A DNA stretch of 64,000 nt from Citrus sinensis. Lineage: Eukaryota; Streptophyta; Magnoliopsida; Sapindales; Rutaceae. Shown piece by piece: positions 1 through 11,917 of this stretch (its first letter is position 1; the number at the start of each line of letters is the position of its first letter). The stretch covers positions 24,806,501 to 24,870,500 of the forward strand of contig NC_068561.1 of assembly GCF_022201045.2 (NCBI RefSeq), in the 5' to 3' direction. The notes under the pieces were generated by a model. It was given only the letters and a program-made list of their open reading frames with translations, was not told the DNA's origin and ran no database searches. Both the position numbers and the translations under genes were made by a program.

Positions 1-592
1 AACACCAACCATAAAGTCTAACTAAGAATTTGGTTCAGTATCAATTTCATCCCATGGACCAAAAGCAAAAACTATATTTGTAAACAATCTCAACACTCAT
101 CACTACTTTCTCAAGCTTAATATGGAAATATAAGAGAAACAAGTCAAAACAACCTCTTTTTAACCCTACAAACCAAAAACTAGAATGAGTCCATTCCTCT
201 TGAAATGATAATAACCAACCCCAAAACCTCAAATTATGAATTAAGAACTTATATGATGCATCTCATGCAAGCTTAACTCGAATGGTTGATCACAAACAGA
301 GAAAAATAACCAGCTCATTTGAGTTTAAAGTCATTCAGGTATCCGATTTCTGAAAGCACCACAGCTAGAGGTTCAAGAAACGCCCACTTTTACTCGGCAG
401 CTGATATTTAACTAACCACCCACCTGGATTACTTGAAAGCTAGTGATTCCATTTCAAAACGGCTGCACCGCATACACTATTTGACACACATTCAACTTTT
501 GCATTGAGACATTTTAACAAACTGTTATTTATTTATTTATTTATTATTATTTTTTTTTTTGGGGTTTTGCGTTTCAAAGATTGAGGCAGTAC
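1..592. other. Probable first intron of the PIG-N gene
   Basis: This stretch lies downstream, in the minus-strand sense, of the first PIG-N coding exon and starts at its splice donor (GT at 592-591). PIG-N would next encode the conserved D-G-L-R-A-D segment; no frame here encodes it, so the second exon is probably beyond the left edge. The sequence is AT-rich with a poly-T/TTTA stretch at about 530-560. I see no other gene here. Confidence 0.55.
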
Positions 593-818
593 CCACGAAA
601 AGGACAAGGCGTTTGGCGGGAGCATCGAAGCGAGGGGTGACCGGATCCATGCCGTGAACGATAGGAGTCTTGAAATAAATATCGAATATGCTTAGCATGT
701 ACACTGCATGAAGGATCACCCCAAGAACCACCAGCCACATCTCCTGCGTCTTCAGCCATTTTTTTCCACGGCTCGTTGCTTTTTCTCTTCTCTTTCCCAA
801 GATCCCGTCGATGCCCAT
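593..818 (-). CDS. PIGN: GPI ethanolamine phosphotransferase 1 (PIG-N), first exon, partial
   Basis: First coding exon of PIG-N, the ER membrane enzyme that adds ethanolamine phosphate to the first mannose of the GPI anchor precursor. The ATG is at 818-816. The 75 codons encode a basic N-terminus (residues 1-25), one hydrophobic segment (about 27-47, MWLVVLGVILHAVYMLSIFD) and the family-typical luminal start with PIVHGM followed by APAKRLVLFV. The exon ends after the first base of a codon at a good donor, G|GTACTG, just where the family continues into the A-D-G-L-R-A-D catalytic motif, so the frame fits. The remaining exons, more than 90 percent of the protein, must lie to the left. Translation past 593 is intron. 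Identification rests on recalled family sequence. A retrogene or truncated copy cannot be excluded because the second exon is not in the window. Confidence 0.82.
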
Positions 819-1084
819 TTGTTTTCTTCCCCTTTTTGTTTTTGATCTCGAGCTACAACTACCCTGTTTGTTTTGTTTTTGTTTTTGTTGAACTTGAGCC
901 CAGTCGAGTACTTTTCTGAGTTTTGAGTGCGGGCAAAAAATGCACTACACAGAAATTTCTAAATGCACCCCTTATATTTTCAATATTTACTTTTCAAGAC
1001 AATTTTCTTGGAGACAAGTAGTCATGCAGGTTTTTTTTTTTTTTAAATAATTTTGCTCATTGCTTAATGCTTATAGCTTATGAA
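819..1084. promoter_or_regulatory. Upstream region of PIG-N
   Basis: A stretch of about 270 bp between the PIG-N start codon and the first recognisable piece of the GASA-family relic. It should hold the 5' UTR and core promoter of PIG-N, read leftward. No convincing TATA box was identified. A T-run is at about 1030-1044. Confidence 0.4.
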
Positions 1085-1830
1085 ATTAATAAGAAGTTCA
1101 CTACAGAACAGAACCAGTTTATTTATCAAACTTATTGCATTCTTACGGCTAGCATATAGTTTTCAATTGATCATTTCAAGGACACACTTCAGTAATGTCA
1201 TGTTTGTTTAAACTGTAAACATTGTCAATGCTTTACGACTCTGGAGTCTGGAGTTGGTTGTGTTTCTGCTTCTGCGTTTTCGTCTGCTTTCTAGTCTGGT
1301 TCTAACAGATTTTGTTAGCTTGACTTTCCTAGGAGTTAGGAGCAGATCATGATCTCTTAACAAGACGAAGCGTCGTTTATAAGAACGACATGACATTGGA
1401 CACCATAACCAAAATCCGACGTGGCGTTTACTGGTTTCGAACAAGCGACCAGTGTTAAGTTTTCAATCGGGAGTAAGAGCTCGTCGAGGTGTCAATCATA
1501 AACTATTCAAACAACGACATGACATCCTTATCCGTAACAAACATCCGACATCAAGTTTACTAGATTTGAACAAACGACAGCTAGCACAAAACCGAGGAGG
1601 CGTCGCCGCGTCGCTAATAACTTTTTAAGACAATGACATGACAGCTACTTATTTCGCATACAACCGACATAACGTTTATAATTTTTGGACAATCGACCAG
1701 GGTATGTTTAAGAAAGCTTAAAAGCTAGCAGTATGCCGCAAGCAGAAGCAGCTGCTGTTGTACATAAGCTGACAGCTAAATTGAAAAATACATCTACATA
1801 GAAGCTGATCTTGGTTCTATTTATTTACTG
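1085..1830 (-). pseudogene. Decayed tandem copy of the neighbouring secreted-protein/GASA gene pair
   Basis: Both ends match the functional neighbour at 2411-4050. The 3' side (about 1095-1195) aligns with the 3' UTR at about 2310-2405: shared words include AGAACCA, CAAACTTATT.CATTC and AAGGACAC. The 5' side (1733-1815) aligns with the promoter at 4078-4160 through GCAAGCAGAAGCAGCT and a downstream AGCTGAT. The TATA box of the functional copy (TATATAAA on the minus strand) has become TTATGTAC here. Between the ends only about 530 bp remain, against about 1.65 kb in the intact gene, and no signal peptide, proline-rich or GASA coding sequence is recognisable. A 78-codon minus-strand frame at 1208-1444, rich in Arg/Lys/Ser, ends where the 3' UTR similarity begins; I do not claim it is translated. 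Confidence 0.6.
1384..1705. repeat. Three degenerate tandem repeats of about 120-130 bp
   Basis: Units start near 1384, 1513 and 1632, each opening with AACGACATGACA or AATGACATGACA. Each unit then has a CCGAC-like word, a GTTTA word and a GA.CAA.CGAC(C)AG block at similar offsets. The units are only moderately similar, so this is an old duplication. It fills the core of the GASA-family relic. On the minus strand all three can be read as a loosely conserved Arg/Lys/Ser/Cys-rich peptide, with stops in units 2 and 3. Confidence 0.6.
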
Positions 1831-2290
1831 TTGTAGCTTCACTAAATCACTTATAAAAGCACTTGCAAGTGGCAGAAAATCTTAACTTAACCAACAAGCC
1901 ACTGCGGGCTGTACTTGCAAAATTAGTATGTCTTTATATTCATGACTCCTTTGCATGTTACAACCATTGGTTAACCACGGGCTATTCTATCGTGCAAAAC
2001 TTGGGATCTAACTACTTGTTTGGCAACACGCCACTCATCAACCAGAGTACTCTACATGACTTGGGCGGCAAATTCTTTATAATTAGACATGTTATCATCC
2101 CTAAGGGACGACAGAAATGGCAAATAAGTCTCCTAAGGGGCCAAAGATATGTTATAATCCAGTATTAAGTCCCCTATCGCAAGTCAATTGATTTGTCAAG
2201 GATATGTTTCAGATGAGACTAGATTTCAGTAATAAAACTCGGGACATAAAACAGAACATGCCATGGCTTGAATTCATTCTGAAAAATCTA
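1831..2290. other. Spacer between the relic and the next gene
   Basis: No recognisable gene. A 101-codon plus-strand open frame at 1863-2168 shows no domain, no bias I recognise and no splice context, so it is treated as chance. The right part probably contains the polyadenylation region of the minus-strand gene ending at 2411. Confidence 0.4.
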
Positions 2291-2410
2291 TGGCTTATAC
2301 GGAAGTAATAGAAAGTCATTACAGAATAGAACCATTTATTATTTCAAACTTATTACATTCTTTAGCTAACAAAAGAGTTGCAGTAGATCTTTTGAAGGAC
2401 ACTTCACTGA

Positions 2411-4050
2411 TTACGCCTGCTCAGCTTCTTCTTCTTCTTCTTCTCCAGCAGTCTCTTCTTCAGCTAAATCTGCATCCGCTGCGTCTTCCTCTGCTAAATC
2501 TGCATCTGCTAAATCGGCATCTGCTACATCATCTGCTAAATCTGCAGGCATCTCTTCATCTATTGCTTTCTTCGGTGGTGGAGGCCTTTTTGGCTTTTTA
2601 GGGGCAGGCTTCACCGGTGGAGATTTCCCTGGCTTCTTTTTCGGTGGGATTTTCTTTCCTGCTTTGGGTGGCTTCCCTTTCCCTCCTTTAGGAGGCTTTT
2701 TACCTCCTTTTCCTCCTGGTTTTTTGCCTCCCTTTCCTCCTGGTTTTTTGCCTCCTTTCCCTCCTGGTTTTTTCGGTCCTTGTTTCTTGCCTGCGCCCTT
2801 CTTAGGAGGTTTGTTTTTTACTCCTCCTTTTTTAACTGGTTTTTTCTGTTTCTGCACAAATTTGCAAGAAGACACTTTTATCAGCTTGTAAAATCAAAAT
2901 GGAATCAGTCGAGCTACTACCAGTAAACTAGCAACTGCTTTTTTTAGAGCTAACTGGCTCATATCCCCCGGCATAAATCCAAGCATCTTAAAATTCTAAA
3001 TTCAATAATAACGGCGTTCGTGAATTTTAATGAAAAATTTATCAAGTGTCTAGTGTCACGCTCCGCATGTAGGTGCCAAAAGCATATCCCCGTATTTCTT
3101 CTAGAGAATCTCTCAATTCTTTGAGAGCAACTAGAAAGAGATTCACCGTCCAGACTTTTGCTCAAGGCCACACCCTCCTTTGGAGGGCGTGACACTAGTG
3201 ATACCATATATGAAAAATGTGGAATATATTTAACATCAATGAGCAAAACAAAAGAACTAAGATGTAGGCATTGATGATACATTACATTTTGCAGGAAAAG
3301 TACTCTGGCCTCAGCAGCTCCTCCTGGCTCCCCTTCTGCTGATAGAAACAGTGGAGATGGCTTGTTGGGTGATGGAGGACCCTCGGATTTAGGTGGTGGC
3401 TTCATTGGAATCAAAGGAGGAGATCTCACTCCACTTATGACTGCTTTGGAGGAAGTATTCTACATAAAAATTCGAAGTGTGAAATTTTTATCAGATTGTA
3501 GACTTGATTAGAATTCATATAGCTGCTGCAAATGTACTAGTAAACAAATGTGATGTACAGACAAGGAAATGCAGGATAAGGGTGTTCAGTTAATCCATTT
3601 ATCGACTATAAACCATGCAGTAAAATTAAAGGGGAAAAAAATGTTTTAGGTGCTTGAGTTGAACACAATGAATTTAGTGCCACCATATTTGATATCAGTA
3701 CTAATTACCAGCTTCACTCCATTTACATACTCATTGGATGAGACCTACAAAAAGAACAAAGACACTACATTATTCAAACATCATTGGTCAAGGTAGAGTA
3801 CCGGAATAACTAAGCAAGAGAACTGAGATATAAACATTGTATAAACATTACGTTGGGGAGCAAAGGATTTGTCTCCTTATCTGTTGAAACCTACAAGATA
3901 AGCAAATCCACCCACTTATTCATATTTCAAACAAAACGAAAGTTTAGGCTTTTCTTGTGTGTGATTTAATAGATGAGAGACATAGAGCCTTACCGCTGTT
4001 GTGAGTAAGAGAAAAGCAGCTGATAAAAACAACACAGCTTTGAAAGCCAT
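2411..4050 (-). CDS. Secreted Lys/Gly/Pro-rich protein with acidic tail (GASA14-like paralogue without GASA domain)
   Basis: Reconstructed from five exons, all phase 0: 3994-4050, 3852-3890, 3709-3744, 3286-3459 and 2411-2851, giving 248 residues. Exon 1 is a 19-residue signal peptide (MAFKAVLFLSAAFLLLTTA) and exon 2 is 13 residues; both match in size and form the first two exons of the GASA gene at 5659-6706. Exons 3-4 are Ser/Pro-rich. Exon 5 encodes a strongly basic block (about residues 103-195) with three PGGKGGKK units and many PPK/KPG motifs, then an acidic Ala/Asp/Glu tail of about 50 residues with ADLA repeats and a run of seven Glu. There are no cysteines in exon 5 and no GASA domain. 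Promoter and 3' UTR also match the GASA neighbour. Family knowledge would suggest a cell-wall, hydroxyproline-rich-like protein; the function is unknown. The exon 4 donor (3285) is the least certain junction. Confidence 0.72.
2690..2790. repeat. In-frame 24-bp tandem repeats in exon 5
   Basis: Three near-identical 24-bp units (CCTCCTGGTTTTTTGCCTCC type on the plus strand) encode the repeated octapeptide PGGKGGKK on the minus strand. The units differ at few, mainly synonymous, positions. Such repeats commonly vary in number between alleles. Confidence 0.75.
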
Positions 4051-4082
4051 TTTGAGGTCCCACCAACGGGGATGATGATACT

Positions 4083-4115
4083 GCAAGCAGAAGCAGCTAC
4101 TGGTTTATATAGAGC
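4083..4115 (-). promoter_or_regulatory. Core promoter with TATA box of the 2411-4050 gene
   Basis: On the minus strand a TATATAAA box lies at about 4104-4111, some 55 bp upstream of the ATG, followed by AGCAGCTTCTGCTTGC. The same arrangement recurs upstream of the GASA gene at 6790-6813 and, with a destroyed TATA box, in the relic at 1738-1770, which supports a shared, duplicated promoter. Confidence 0.6.
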
Positions 4116-5440
4116 TGAAGTGAAAAGAGATTCTGTTACTTGGTAGCTGATTTTCTTTCCATAGATGTAACAATTCCAGTTTCAGCTGATGACCTAACAC
4201 GGATGTTAAAAAAAGAAGTACACAATTTATTAACCACATAATGCTTGTCTTTCAAATTCTTGAACCTAAAGACATTCGAAGCTGGTTGATTCGTTTTTCA
4301 CCAAATTGCTTGGAAACATTGCCATTCAACAAAGCAGATCACTCCACATGAATTGGAGTGGGGAGCATGTGGCCTGTTCTATGGTGCCATGCCTTAGGTA
4401 ATGTTTATTGGATGGCTGAGCTCACTTACAATTACATAATTACCATCATTATTATTATTTTGTGACGTGCCATCAAATGTTTACATAGAATTATAGAACT
4501 TCCTCATCACTCCCCTGAAGGATAATTTCCTCTTTTTTTCTTAAAATGCTTTTCAATGAAAATGCACTCGGAGGCGATTGAGATTTCTCTAACGTGTATA
4601 TATAAAAGCTACAAACCTACAATCGAATCCATAAATTTTCTTTCATCCTATGTGATTACTGTGATTATTCAATATATTAACTAGAAGTCCATGGTCATAA
4701 AATTTTCATTTTATGGAACCCCTTTTCATTTTTGCTACTTTCCATTGTTCAGTTTGTTTGAACACCAAGACTTTCACCTTTCTCGGTTGCCTTATTGGTG
4801 AAAGTTCCAAGTGCATTGAGAAGTCACCTTGCCCCTTTGAAATAATGAATCATCTGTGAATTCACAATGCCGCCCTGAAATCATGACCCATTTGTGAAGC
4901 TATAAAAGCCATTTACAGGACGACATGGTTATAAAGAAACTGCGTTAAAGAGCACTGATTTGTCTGGGAAAGATGAACAAAGTCCAGACTTGTTCCATAA
5001 TCTTGAGAAAAATGCAGAAAGCGCATAAGAGATACTTCATGTCATTGGGGTCAAAGACGAAGAAATGAAAAATGAAGAAAGTACCATATATCCCGGATTC
5101 TTATAGGGTTTCCAAGCTACATATTCAGAATGGATTGCCTCCCTAACTGAGGCTCCTTCCAAATTATAATAATAATAATAATAATAATATTTGTTGGTAA
5201 TTTGTGTCTAGACATACGTAACTACTTCCACTAAACAGGTTTAATATTCGCAATTATCATTTAAATGGCGTTTAATTCACAAATCACAACTGCTAAGAAA
5301 TAAAACCATTTAGTCTCTAGTATAAGAGGATGGATGAGTGGCAAATATAAGTTAAACAAGTAAAAAAATGAGTGTTCATCAAATAATAAGGATACCTTAA
5401 GACTATATCTATGAATCTACAATGAGTCAAAACATTTCAC
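4116..5440. other. Intergenic spacer with (AAT)n
   Basis: Upstream region of the 2411-4050 gene and distal 3' region of the GASA gene. It holds an (AAT/ATA)n microsatellite at about 5165-5190. No open frame with recognisable content was found on either strand. Confidence 0.5.
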
Positions 5441-5658
5441 TTGCAATGAAACTGAAAATATACTACTTTATAATGTCTAGGATTAACAAGGGAAATTTCA
5501 GCAGAAACTAACAGAAGTAGATCAGCCATGGCTTAACACACTACATGCACAATCTTGCAGTGACACAGAAAGTCACTAGAAAACCATTTACTCTTTAACA
5601 CTTATTGCAGGTCAACTTAAGCTAACATAAAATTTCAACAGATGCTAATATTTATAAC

Positions 5659-6706
5659 TTAAGGGCACTTGGGTTTATTGCCCCGAGTAGTCATATCAGT
5701 GTAGCACTTGCCACACTTCTCTCTGTTGCCATAAGTTCCTGGTGGAACACATTTGCACCTAACACAGCATGTAGTGCAAGCTCTTCCACAAACGTTTGGC
5801 CTTGAGTGTGCCTTGCATCTTGCTGCACATAGTGGGATGCAATCTGAAAAGAACAGGTACAAAAGTACTGTCAAAAGATGAACCAAAACGTTTTAAAATA
5901 AAAATGAAACTTTTGTTAATTTTTAAATGATACCTTTGTTTGACCTCACAATAGGCATTGGTGGAGATGCCGGAGAGGGAACTTGGGGGGCAGGAGCTGT
6001 TTTAGGTGGGGTCACTGGTGGGGGAGTGGTTGTGGGTGGCTTCACTGGTGGTGGATAAGTGGTGGGTGGCCTCACTACTGGTGGTGGAGTGATTGGCTTA
6101 ACTGGAGCCTTAGTAGGAGCTGGTGCAGGTACTGGGGTTTTGGGGTAAGTAGTATCCTGTACCAAATTGCAAAGAACCAAATGTTTACCATCTTTGTATA
6201 CAATAATAAAACCCAACTATCGCAAGTAAAACCTTAATGTCGGGAAAACACGTTAGCTACGAGTAAAAATGCAAGCAATCTCAAACATAGCTGATATCAA
6301 AGATCATATTTACTGCTAAAGATCAAGCATAAAATAAACTGAAATTTCAAAAATTAGTGTCTAGGAGTTTTGCCTGAATCTAAATATAAAAAAAAAAAAA
6401 CTTTAAAGAAACCATTTTGTACTACAAAGCATGTTGTGACAGAGATTCAATTTTTGTGTACAAAAACTGAACAGTCTAAACTATTTTCATTTTGTTTGTC
6501 CCACAATAATAAAATACCTTTTCTAGCAGATATTCCTCCTCATTGTTGGATAAAACCTACAAAAAGAAAATATTAAAACATAAACCCAGAGAGAAGTTTG
6601 AGTACTTAGCTTATGTACAAATGTTAAGAGAAGGGACAGGGAGCCTTACACTTGTAGAGACTAAAAGCAAAGTGGCCAACAGAAGCGGAGCAGCTCTGAA
6701 AGCCAT
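5659..6706 (-). CDS. Proline-rich gibberellin-regulated protein (GASA14-like)
   Basis: Member of the GASA/snakin family of secreted cysteine-rich peptides, involved in growth, redox and hormone responses, here with a proline-rich spacer as in Arabidopsis GASA14. Four exons: 6650-6706, 6518-6556, 5934-6156 and 5659-5843, giving 167 residues. Exon 1 encodes a 19-residue signal peptide. Exon 2 is 13 acidic residues. Exon 3 is a 74-residue Pro/Thr/Val-rich segment with PPPV, PPT and APAP repeats, likely hydroxylated and glycosylated. Exon 4, joined in phase 1 (G|AT), gives the GASA domain of 60 residues with all 12 conserved cysteines, starting CIPLCAARC and ending KPKCP. All splice sites are GT-AG and the frame closes at a stop at 5659. 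The neighbour at 2411-4050 shares exons 1-2, promoter and 3' UTR sequence, so the two are tandem duplicates. Confidence 0.9.
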
Positions 6707-10838: not shown

Positions 10839-11917
10839 GAGTGGGATTATTGGCACTCCTCAAAATATCTCTTAAAATTCTTTTAGTTATTTTATAATTT
10901 TAACCTTTATTAAAATTACATAATAAGATAATCATGAATTTTACAATTCTAAATACCTCTTAACACCCTTTTTTGTTTTTATTTTACTTTTTTAACATTT
11001 TCGAGTTTACTCCAACTGCAAACTAATTTATAAATTATGATCTACATACTATAAATTTAAGTAATGCTACAAGTGACTGTAAATATTAAAATATCAGCAA
11101 AAAAATAAAAAATAAATTGATTAAGAGACAAAATAAATAGTATCTAAAATTGAAATTCAACATTTTTTTTAATACTGAAATTCAGCATTTTAAAAATTAA
11201 GAAAGTTACTTTTTAATCTTATTTTCTGGTGAGGAATTATCGGCATCAGCAACTCATTATCAACAAGCTTCAAATAAAAAACCGAGATCCACGAGGAAAA
11301 TTAAGAAAGAAGACGGTAATTATGAAGCAAAGGACGAGCTGAACGATCATCATAATTATTTTTCCACCGACATATTTTCTAGTGCCTCAATTGTCTTTCT
11401 CCACGAAGGCACGCAGTCTTTCGAAGAATCTGTAATCCTGCATTTTCATAAGCTTGTGCTCAACATTTTCATCAGTAAACCAAATTAGCACTTGGCCTTA
11501 TAATTACACGCATGGTAGCCAAGTGTTTGCGAGGTGTCATTATCAATTACAATGAGTTGTCATGCATTAAAGTGCTGACTAGTGTTTGCGAGGTGTCATT
11601 ATCAATTACAATGAGTTGTCATGCATTAAAGTGCTGACTATGTGGTATTTCAATGATTTCCCACAATAAGGTAGAAGTTTCGTAGAGTAAGTTTCCTTTT
11701 TTCTTTTTTTCTTTTTTTCCTTCTTTCTTTTTCAATAGATGATTAATTGTCTCAAAATCCACAATTAAGGGGTTTATATTAATAAATTTAAATTAAAGAT
11801 ATTTTTGTCATTAAAAAGGTGTTAAAAAATTTTATAATATTTTTAAATATTTTAATGGGGTTAATAAAGAAAAGAGGTGTTAGAGAGATATTTGTAGGGG
11901 TGCCAATAGTCTCACTC
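10839..11917. mobile_element. Non-autonomous Mutator-like DNA transposon (MULE) 2, 1079 bp
   Basis: The left end GAGTGGGATTATTGGCACTC at 10839 pairs with the inverted right end GAGTGAGACTATTGGCACCC ending at 11917. Similarity continues through CAAATATCTCT. The element is flanked by an exact 9-bp target-site duplication, CAAATTTAA, at 10830-10838 and 11918-11926. The termini differ from those of MULE 1, so this is a separate family. The interior is AT-rich, lacks a transposase and holds an exact 59-bp tandem duplication. Both elements sit in very similar AT-rich target sites. Confidence 0.85.
11522..11639. repeat. Exact 59-bp tandem duplication
   Basis: The units 11522-11580 and 11581-11639 are identical over all 59 bp, starting AGTGTTTGCGAGGTG and ending GTGCTGACT. 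The lack of any mismatch implies a very recent duplication, or a local assembly artefact. Confidence 0.95.

Follow-up and report, generated by a model that had tools for sequence, protein, structure and literature searches.

A cysteine-less putative paralogue of a GASA14-type gene in Citrus sinensis with a predicted basic and acidic last exon

On chromosome 6 of Citrus sinensis a GASA14-like gene is accompanied by a gene that resembles it in its flanks and its signal exon and departs from it in its last exon, which reads as two blocks of opposite charge. This arrangement raises the question whether the second gene, which we call the charge-block gene, is a real gene at all, whether it descends from a GASA gene, whether its deviating last exon is translated and what the encoded protein may do. 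We examined the locus within a stretch of 64,000 nucleotides (NC_068561.1, positions 24,806,501 to 24,870,500 of the forward strand), hereafter the window; the coordinates of the features, counted from the first letter of the window, are given in Table 1.

Table 1. Features of the charge-block gene, of its GASA14-like neighbour and of a third copy in the window.
Feature	Position	Strand	Description
Charge-block gene	2411-4050	-	5 exons, 248 codons plus stop, spliced frame
Exon 1	3994-4050	-	19 codons, MAFKAVLFLSAAFLLLTTA, signal-peptide-like, donor GTAAGG
Exon 2	3852-3890	-	13 codons, VSTDKETNPLLPN, probable duplicate of exon 3
Exon 3	3709-3744	-	12 codons, VSSNEYVNGVKL, best match of the neighbour's exon 2
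Exon 4	3286-3459	-	58 codons, Pro/Ser-rich, donor GTAATG at 3285
Exon 5	2411-2851	-	146 codons plus stop
Exon 5, basic block	2564-2851	-	96 residues
Exon 5, acidic tail	2414-2563	-	50 residues
PGGKGGKK octapeptides	2696-2767	-	three in tandem, 24-base units; Tandem Repeats Finder row 2697-2773
Promoter	4051-4200	-	TATATAA (by eye); common to the GASA14-like gene and the third copy
3' flank	2289-2410	-	common to the GASA14-like gene and the third copy
Gutted third copy	1072-1827	-	3' flank 1072-1185, promoter 1733-1827, no recognisable exon between
GASA14-like neighbour	5659-6706	-	exons 6650-6706, 6518-6556, 5934-6156, 5659-5843; 167 residues

Analysis of the minus strand confirmed that the charge-block gene has a real gene structure. 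All of its exon lengths are multiples of 3, and the four introns (103, 107, 249 and 434 bases) are all in phase 0 and bordered by GT and AG, which bears out the five-exon layout proposed in an earlier sequence-only reading. The AT content amounts to 62-68% in the introns versus 51-60% in the exons. One splice site, the donor of exon 4, had been regarded as doubtful from the beginning. To judge homology here and below, alignments were scored against random stretches of real sequence, with 2000 controls unless given otherwise. The donor side of exon 4 aligns with that of exon 2 over 61 alignment columns with a score of 47 (control maximum 34, 0/2000 controls reach the score), and since the surroundings of the two donors thereby appear homologous, the donor at 3285 gains support.

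The GASA14-like neighbour shows the exon order signal exon, 13-codon exon, Pro-rich exon and GASA domain, and its last exon matches Pfam PF02704 with an E value of 1.5e-20. The GASA14 or PRP-GASA proteins, to which it is similar, include AtGASA14, Gerbera PRGL and the citrus CcGASA11. Like CcGASA11 of Citrus clementina it is found on the reverse strand of chromosome 6, in our case at 24.81 Mb; for CcGASA11 the accessible part of the published description gives S6 24264177-24265636, reverse, with 4 exons and 206 residues (PMC8638133). With 167 residues the gene in the window differs from the published allele, and the repeat number in the Pro-rich exon (5934-6156) may vary among citrus (167 versus 206 residues). 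Elsewhere in the window a gene start at about 590-818 on the minus strand apparently runs off the left end, as judged from its translation, and we take it to resemble PIGN/MCD4 (GPI ethanolamine phosphate transferase 1). At 11522-11640 a 59-base unit is present in two tandem copies, which are perfect and thus probably the result of a recent duplication.

Comparison of the two adjoining genes revealed significant similarity in three parts. The promoter of the charge-block gene aligns with that of the neighbour with a score of 46 (control maximum 38), exon 1 with the neighbour's exon 1 with a score of 40 (control maximum 32) and the 3' flank with its counterpart with a score of 59 (control maximum 34), in each case with 0/2000 controls reaching the score. 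Judged from the homology of these three parts, the charge-block gene is a descendant of a GASA14-type gene, and the initial idea that flanks of GASA-family origin enclose a last exon of another kind holds when alignments are measured against real-sequence controls. The same idea had listed the second exon among the common parts, and here it has to be amended: the neighbour's 13-codon exon 2 is matched better by exon 3 of the charge-block gene (2/2000 controls reach the score) than by exon 2 (30/2000). Exons 2 and 3, taken with 60-base flanks, also match each other (0/2000), and as the one short exon of the neighbour fits exon 3 better, the short second exon has probably been doubled within the charge-block gene. 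The beginnings of exon 4 and of the Pro-rich exon of the neighbour align marginally (score 36, control maximum 35, 0/1000). The charge-block gene is therefore like a GASA14 or PRP-GASA gene in its promoter, signal exon, short second exon and 3' flank, and marginally in its Pro-rich exon, and unlike it in having five exons instead of four and a Lys-rich block with an acidic tail in place of the GASA domain. When we looked for a relic of this domain in positions 1-5600, only short chance-level matches were obtained (best E 0.85). As a candidate for direct descent of exon 5 the neighbour's Pro-rich exon was rejected at the DNA level, where the alignment is not significant (11/300 shuffles); the protein comparison yielded an E value of 1.75e-4, and because composition correction and low-complexity filter were off in that comparison, we leave this line of descent open.

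On its other side the charge-block gene adjoins a third copy, in which the 3' flank (score 112, control maximum 34, 0/2000) and the promoter (score 70, control maximum 38, 0/2000) are still recognisable. The TATA box has decayed to TATGTAC, compared by eye with TATATAA in the charge-block gene, and the middle of the copy contains diverged repeats at distances of 119 and 129 bases and shows no significant similarity to exons 1-3 (168/300 shuffles). A K/R-rich frame within this copy (1208-1462, minus strand, 84 residues, 29% K+R) was considered as its exon 5; 27% K+R is reached by none of the 78 other open stretches with at least 80 residues in positions 9001-64000, and the score of the middle against exon 5 is reached by 1/300 Markov shuffles but by 37/1000 real-sequence controls, for which reason this frame was rejected as an exon-5 counterpart. 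A whole-genome search with the third copy returned only the copy itself; the same search missed the related neighbouring flanks, so that it shows merely that no close copy was found. A gutted copy next door lends some weight to the view that the charge-block gene is itself a decaying or merely transcribed relic, which lost its GASA exon and in which functionless low-complexity sequence grew instead. Against such decay, the start, phase and splice sites of the charge-block gene are intact and its TATA box is retained; further evidence bearing on this view comes from the last exon.

As the sequence-only reading had stated, the last exon carries no cysteine-rich domain. The 12-cysteine C-terminal domain of GASA/snakin proteins was detected neither in exon 5 nor in the whole protein (no PF02704 match), 0 cysteines are present among the 248 residues, and by that family's defining feature the charge-block protein is no longer a GASA protein. 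The Lys/Gly/Pro block of about 90 residues with PGGKGGKK octapeptides and the Ala/Asp/Glu tail of about 50 residues described earlier were found again, with lengths of 96 and 50 residues and three tandem octapeptide units in the last exon. The basic block contains 39 basic and 0 acidic residues (40% Lys, pI 11.92), the tail 25 acidic and 0 basic residues arranged in Asp/Glu/Ala repeats (pI 4.05). The charge segregation of the exon-5 protein (0.192) exceeds that of 500/500 shuffles (maximum 0.126). If the mature part is taken to start after residue 19, a cut placed at the end of exon 1 and not by a predictor, it comprises 47 basic and 32 acidic residues. The encoded chain is probably disordered. 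Exon 1 encodes a hydrophobic stretch of 19 residues homologous to exon 1 of the neighbour, and from this homology and make-up the protein is predicted to be secreted.

We screened the protein databases for relatives and obtained 0 Pfam-A families and 0 PDB sequences for exon 5 at E≤1. The whole protein matches the Pro-rich family PF15240 (E 0.00043, residues 6-205) with 21.1 bits, below the curated cut-off of 30, a match that exon 5 alone does not give; among PDB sequences it matches two ribosomal proteins (E 0.2 and 0.94). We read both as likeness of composition. A literature text search for the PGGKGGKK octapeptide found no paper, and the earlier statement that the protein belongs to no named family is thus upheld within Pfam-A, the PDB sequences and this text search. 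Literature searches for de novo or new-exon GASA genes, and for GASA, proline-rich, lysine-rich and gibberellin-regulated together, likewise found no paper. The charge-block gene is not mentioned in the accessible portions of two citrus GASA papers (PMC8638133, PMC12899242), and the words lysine, GASA and galacturon do not occur in PMC7177597, on PAC-domain wall proteins. The 40% Lys of the basic block and the two ribosomal proteins as sole PDB matches could also suggest a lysine-rich, acidic-tailed protein that is not secreted and acts on nucleic acid in the nucleus like histone H1 or HMG. As Pfam yielded neither H1 nor HMG and the signal-peptide-like exon has its homologue in a secreted family, we consider this highly improbable.

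The genome searches covered 299.7 Mb on 11 contigs. With exon 5 only exon 5 itself was found at E≤0.001, and two other places were added at E≤10 (0.46 and 8.46). Exons 1-4 gave three places within the charge-block gene and one at E 5.95, and the DNA of the whole gene matched, apart from its own locus, an intron element at three places. These searches are insensitive, as that with exons 1-4 missed exon 1 of the neighbour and those with the gene DNA and the third copy missed neighbouring copies with about 70-74% identity in local alignment, so that the genome may contain diverged relatives elsewhere. The intron element is an 80-base stretch of intron 4 (3065-3144), which has further copies at two places on C4 (88 and 90%) and at one on C1 (81%) and is perhaps a small mobile element; by eye it is flanked by the ends GTGTCACGC and GCGTGACAC, which the repeat tool did not detect. 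GASA domains were found at 17 places in the genome, among 18 candidates scored. The weakest of the 17 matches (C5:17882223-17882393, 52.2 bits) lies within the longest open frame among these places, which spans 214 residues.

Whether the last exon is translated was assessed from its frame and its repeats. The minus strand over exon 5 contains 10% T and the opposite strand is also open over the same stretch, so we do not regard openness as the main evidence; a frame open across 146 codons was found in 4/500 Markov simulations of order 2 and 1/500 of order 3. The lowest-frame amino-acid entropy of the basic block lies under that of all 500 Markov simulations, for order 2 and order 3 alike. A frame-blind repeat search of exon 5 yielded four segments with lags of 15, 24, 30 and 48, all four of them multiples of 3, and 16 of the 20 differences among these segments are in third positions, which are not independent events as the segments overlap. 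Among the five arrays reported by Tandem Repeats Finder, 19 of 33 variable columns are third-position columns. The bias is confined to the three closer arrays (92, 88 and 81% matches), where third positions account for 3/3, 3/3 and 4/5 columns (10/11), while the two more diverged arrays (70 and 73% matches, 7-8% indels), both located in the acidic tail and overlapping the 88% array, show none with 5/12 and 4/10. An antisense frame without methionine (2370-2891, plus strand) shares its third positions with the exon-5 frame, and the repeat pattern alone therefore cannot choose the strand. In the tail the amino-acid entropy is lower in the antisense frame (1.99 versus 2.59); promoter, signal exon and 3' flank all indicate the minus strand. 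The third-position bias of the closer repeats, together with the supported donor, suggests that the exon-5 frame is probably translated under selection.

These results bear on the relic view from both sides. A last exon that is simple and T-poor, with its other strand open too, and more diverged repeats that lack third-position bias are in line with it, whereas the bias in the closer repeats and the rarity of so long an open frame among the simulations argue against it, and overall we regard a relic as rather unlikely.

The explanation that we favour, with a probability of roughly 0.5, is that of a cysteine-less GASA14 paralogue, secreted and disordered, which is predicted to bind acidic pectin. 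According to this proposal a tandem duplicate of a GASA14-type gene would have retained the promoter, the signal-peptide exon, the short second exon and the 3' end and dropped the cysteine-rich GASA exon, and the short second exon would since have been doubled. The last exon would now encode a basic Lys/Gly/Pro block and then an acidic Ala/Asp/Glu tail, free of cysteine. The gene would be expressed and its product secreted into the wall, where the 39 basic residues may bind de-esterified pectin (homogalacturonan, RG-II) electrostatically, by analogy with cationic extensins. The acidic tail could tune this binding or join chains head to tail, and a basic block in which Gly and Pro act as spacers, combined with such a tail, could make the binding reversible. 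The sequence-only reading likewise supposed that a secreted protein with adjoining blocks of opposite charge could bind pectin, self-associate or phase separate.

Extensins are defined by repeated Ser-Pro(3-5) motifs and Tyr cross-link motifs. Such motifs are missing from the charge-block protein, which contains 0 SPPP, 2 SPP, one PPP and one PPPP run and 1 Tyr in 248 residues. With the Lys/His-rich extensins, which are basic Hyp-rich wall glycoproteins, it has in common that it is basic, Pro-rich, putatively secreted and presumably acts on anionic pectin; unlike extensins it is Gly-rich with an acidic tail. In the accessible part of the source, a basic glycoprotein of the wall, the spinach extensin (Lys 7.8%, His 6.3%), is reported to promote RG-II dimerisation in vitro (PMC4973674). 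The same part of that source describes polylysine as binding RG-II firmly and permanently, unlike a reversible chaperone, and by analogy this permanent binding would count against the pectin-binding model (PMC4973674).

The main functional rival assumes a precursor similar to those of class II defensins or thionins, that is a cationic defence polypeptide with a C-terminal propeptide, in which the acidic tail would neutralise the basic block, steer it to the vacuole and then be cut off. Thionins, like class II defensins, have an acidic C-terminal part, and the order of signal, basic part and acidic C-terminal part is the same in the charge-block protein. For NaD1, the available text attributes detoxification and targeting to the vacuole to the acidic CTPP (PMC3922462), and the parent family, GASA/snakin, is described as antimicrobial peptides in the portion of PMC7711543 at hand. 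The charge-block protein nevertheless differs in being of low complexity and without cysteines: the cysteine-stabilised basic domain of class II defensin and thionin precursors is absent, and with 0 cysteines none of the cysteine-stabilised folds can be formed. Its tail of 50 residues also exceeds the roughly 33 given for defensin CTPPs in the accessible part of PMC3922462. We judge a precursor of this kind unlikely.

Starting from the favoured paralogue one may tentatively go further, at odds that we place somewhat against it, and regard the GASA14 duplicate as a recently born gene in which the effector domain has been exchanged for a secreted block polyampholyte, with the parent's promoter and secretion signal kept; as part of the same tentative reading, the polyampholyte might represent a so far unnamed kind of charge-patterned polymer serving in the wall or in defence. 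A paralogue without the 12-cysteine domain would escape GASA gene lists, because members are defined there by this very domain, as stated in the accessible parts of PMC8638133, PMC12899242 and PMC7711543. If expressed, the charge-block gene would clearly exemplify how a secreted gene can retain its address and control while its entire working part is replaced, and it would offer a natural test of the effect of charge patterning on pectin binding.
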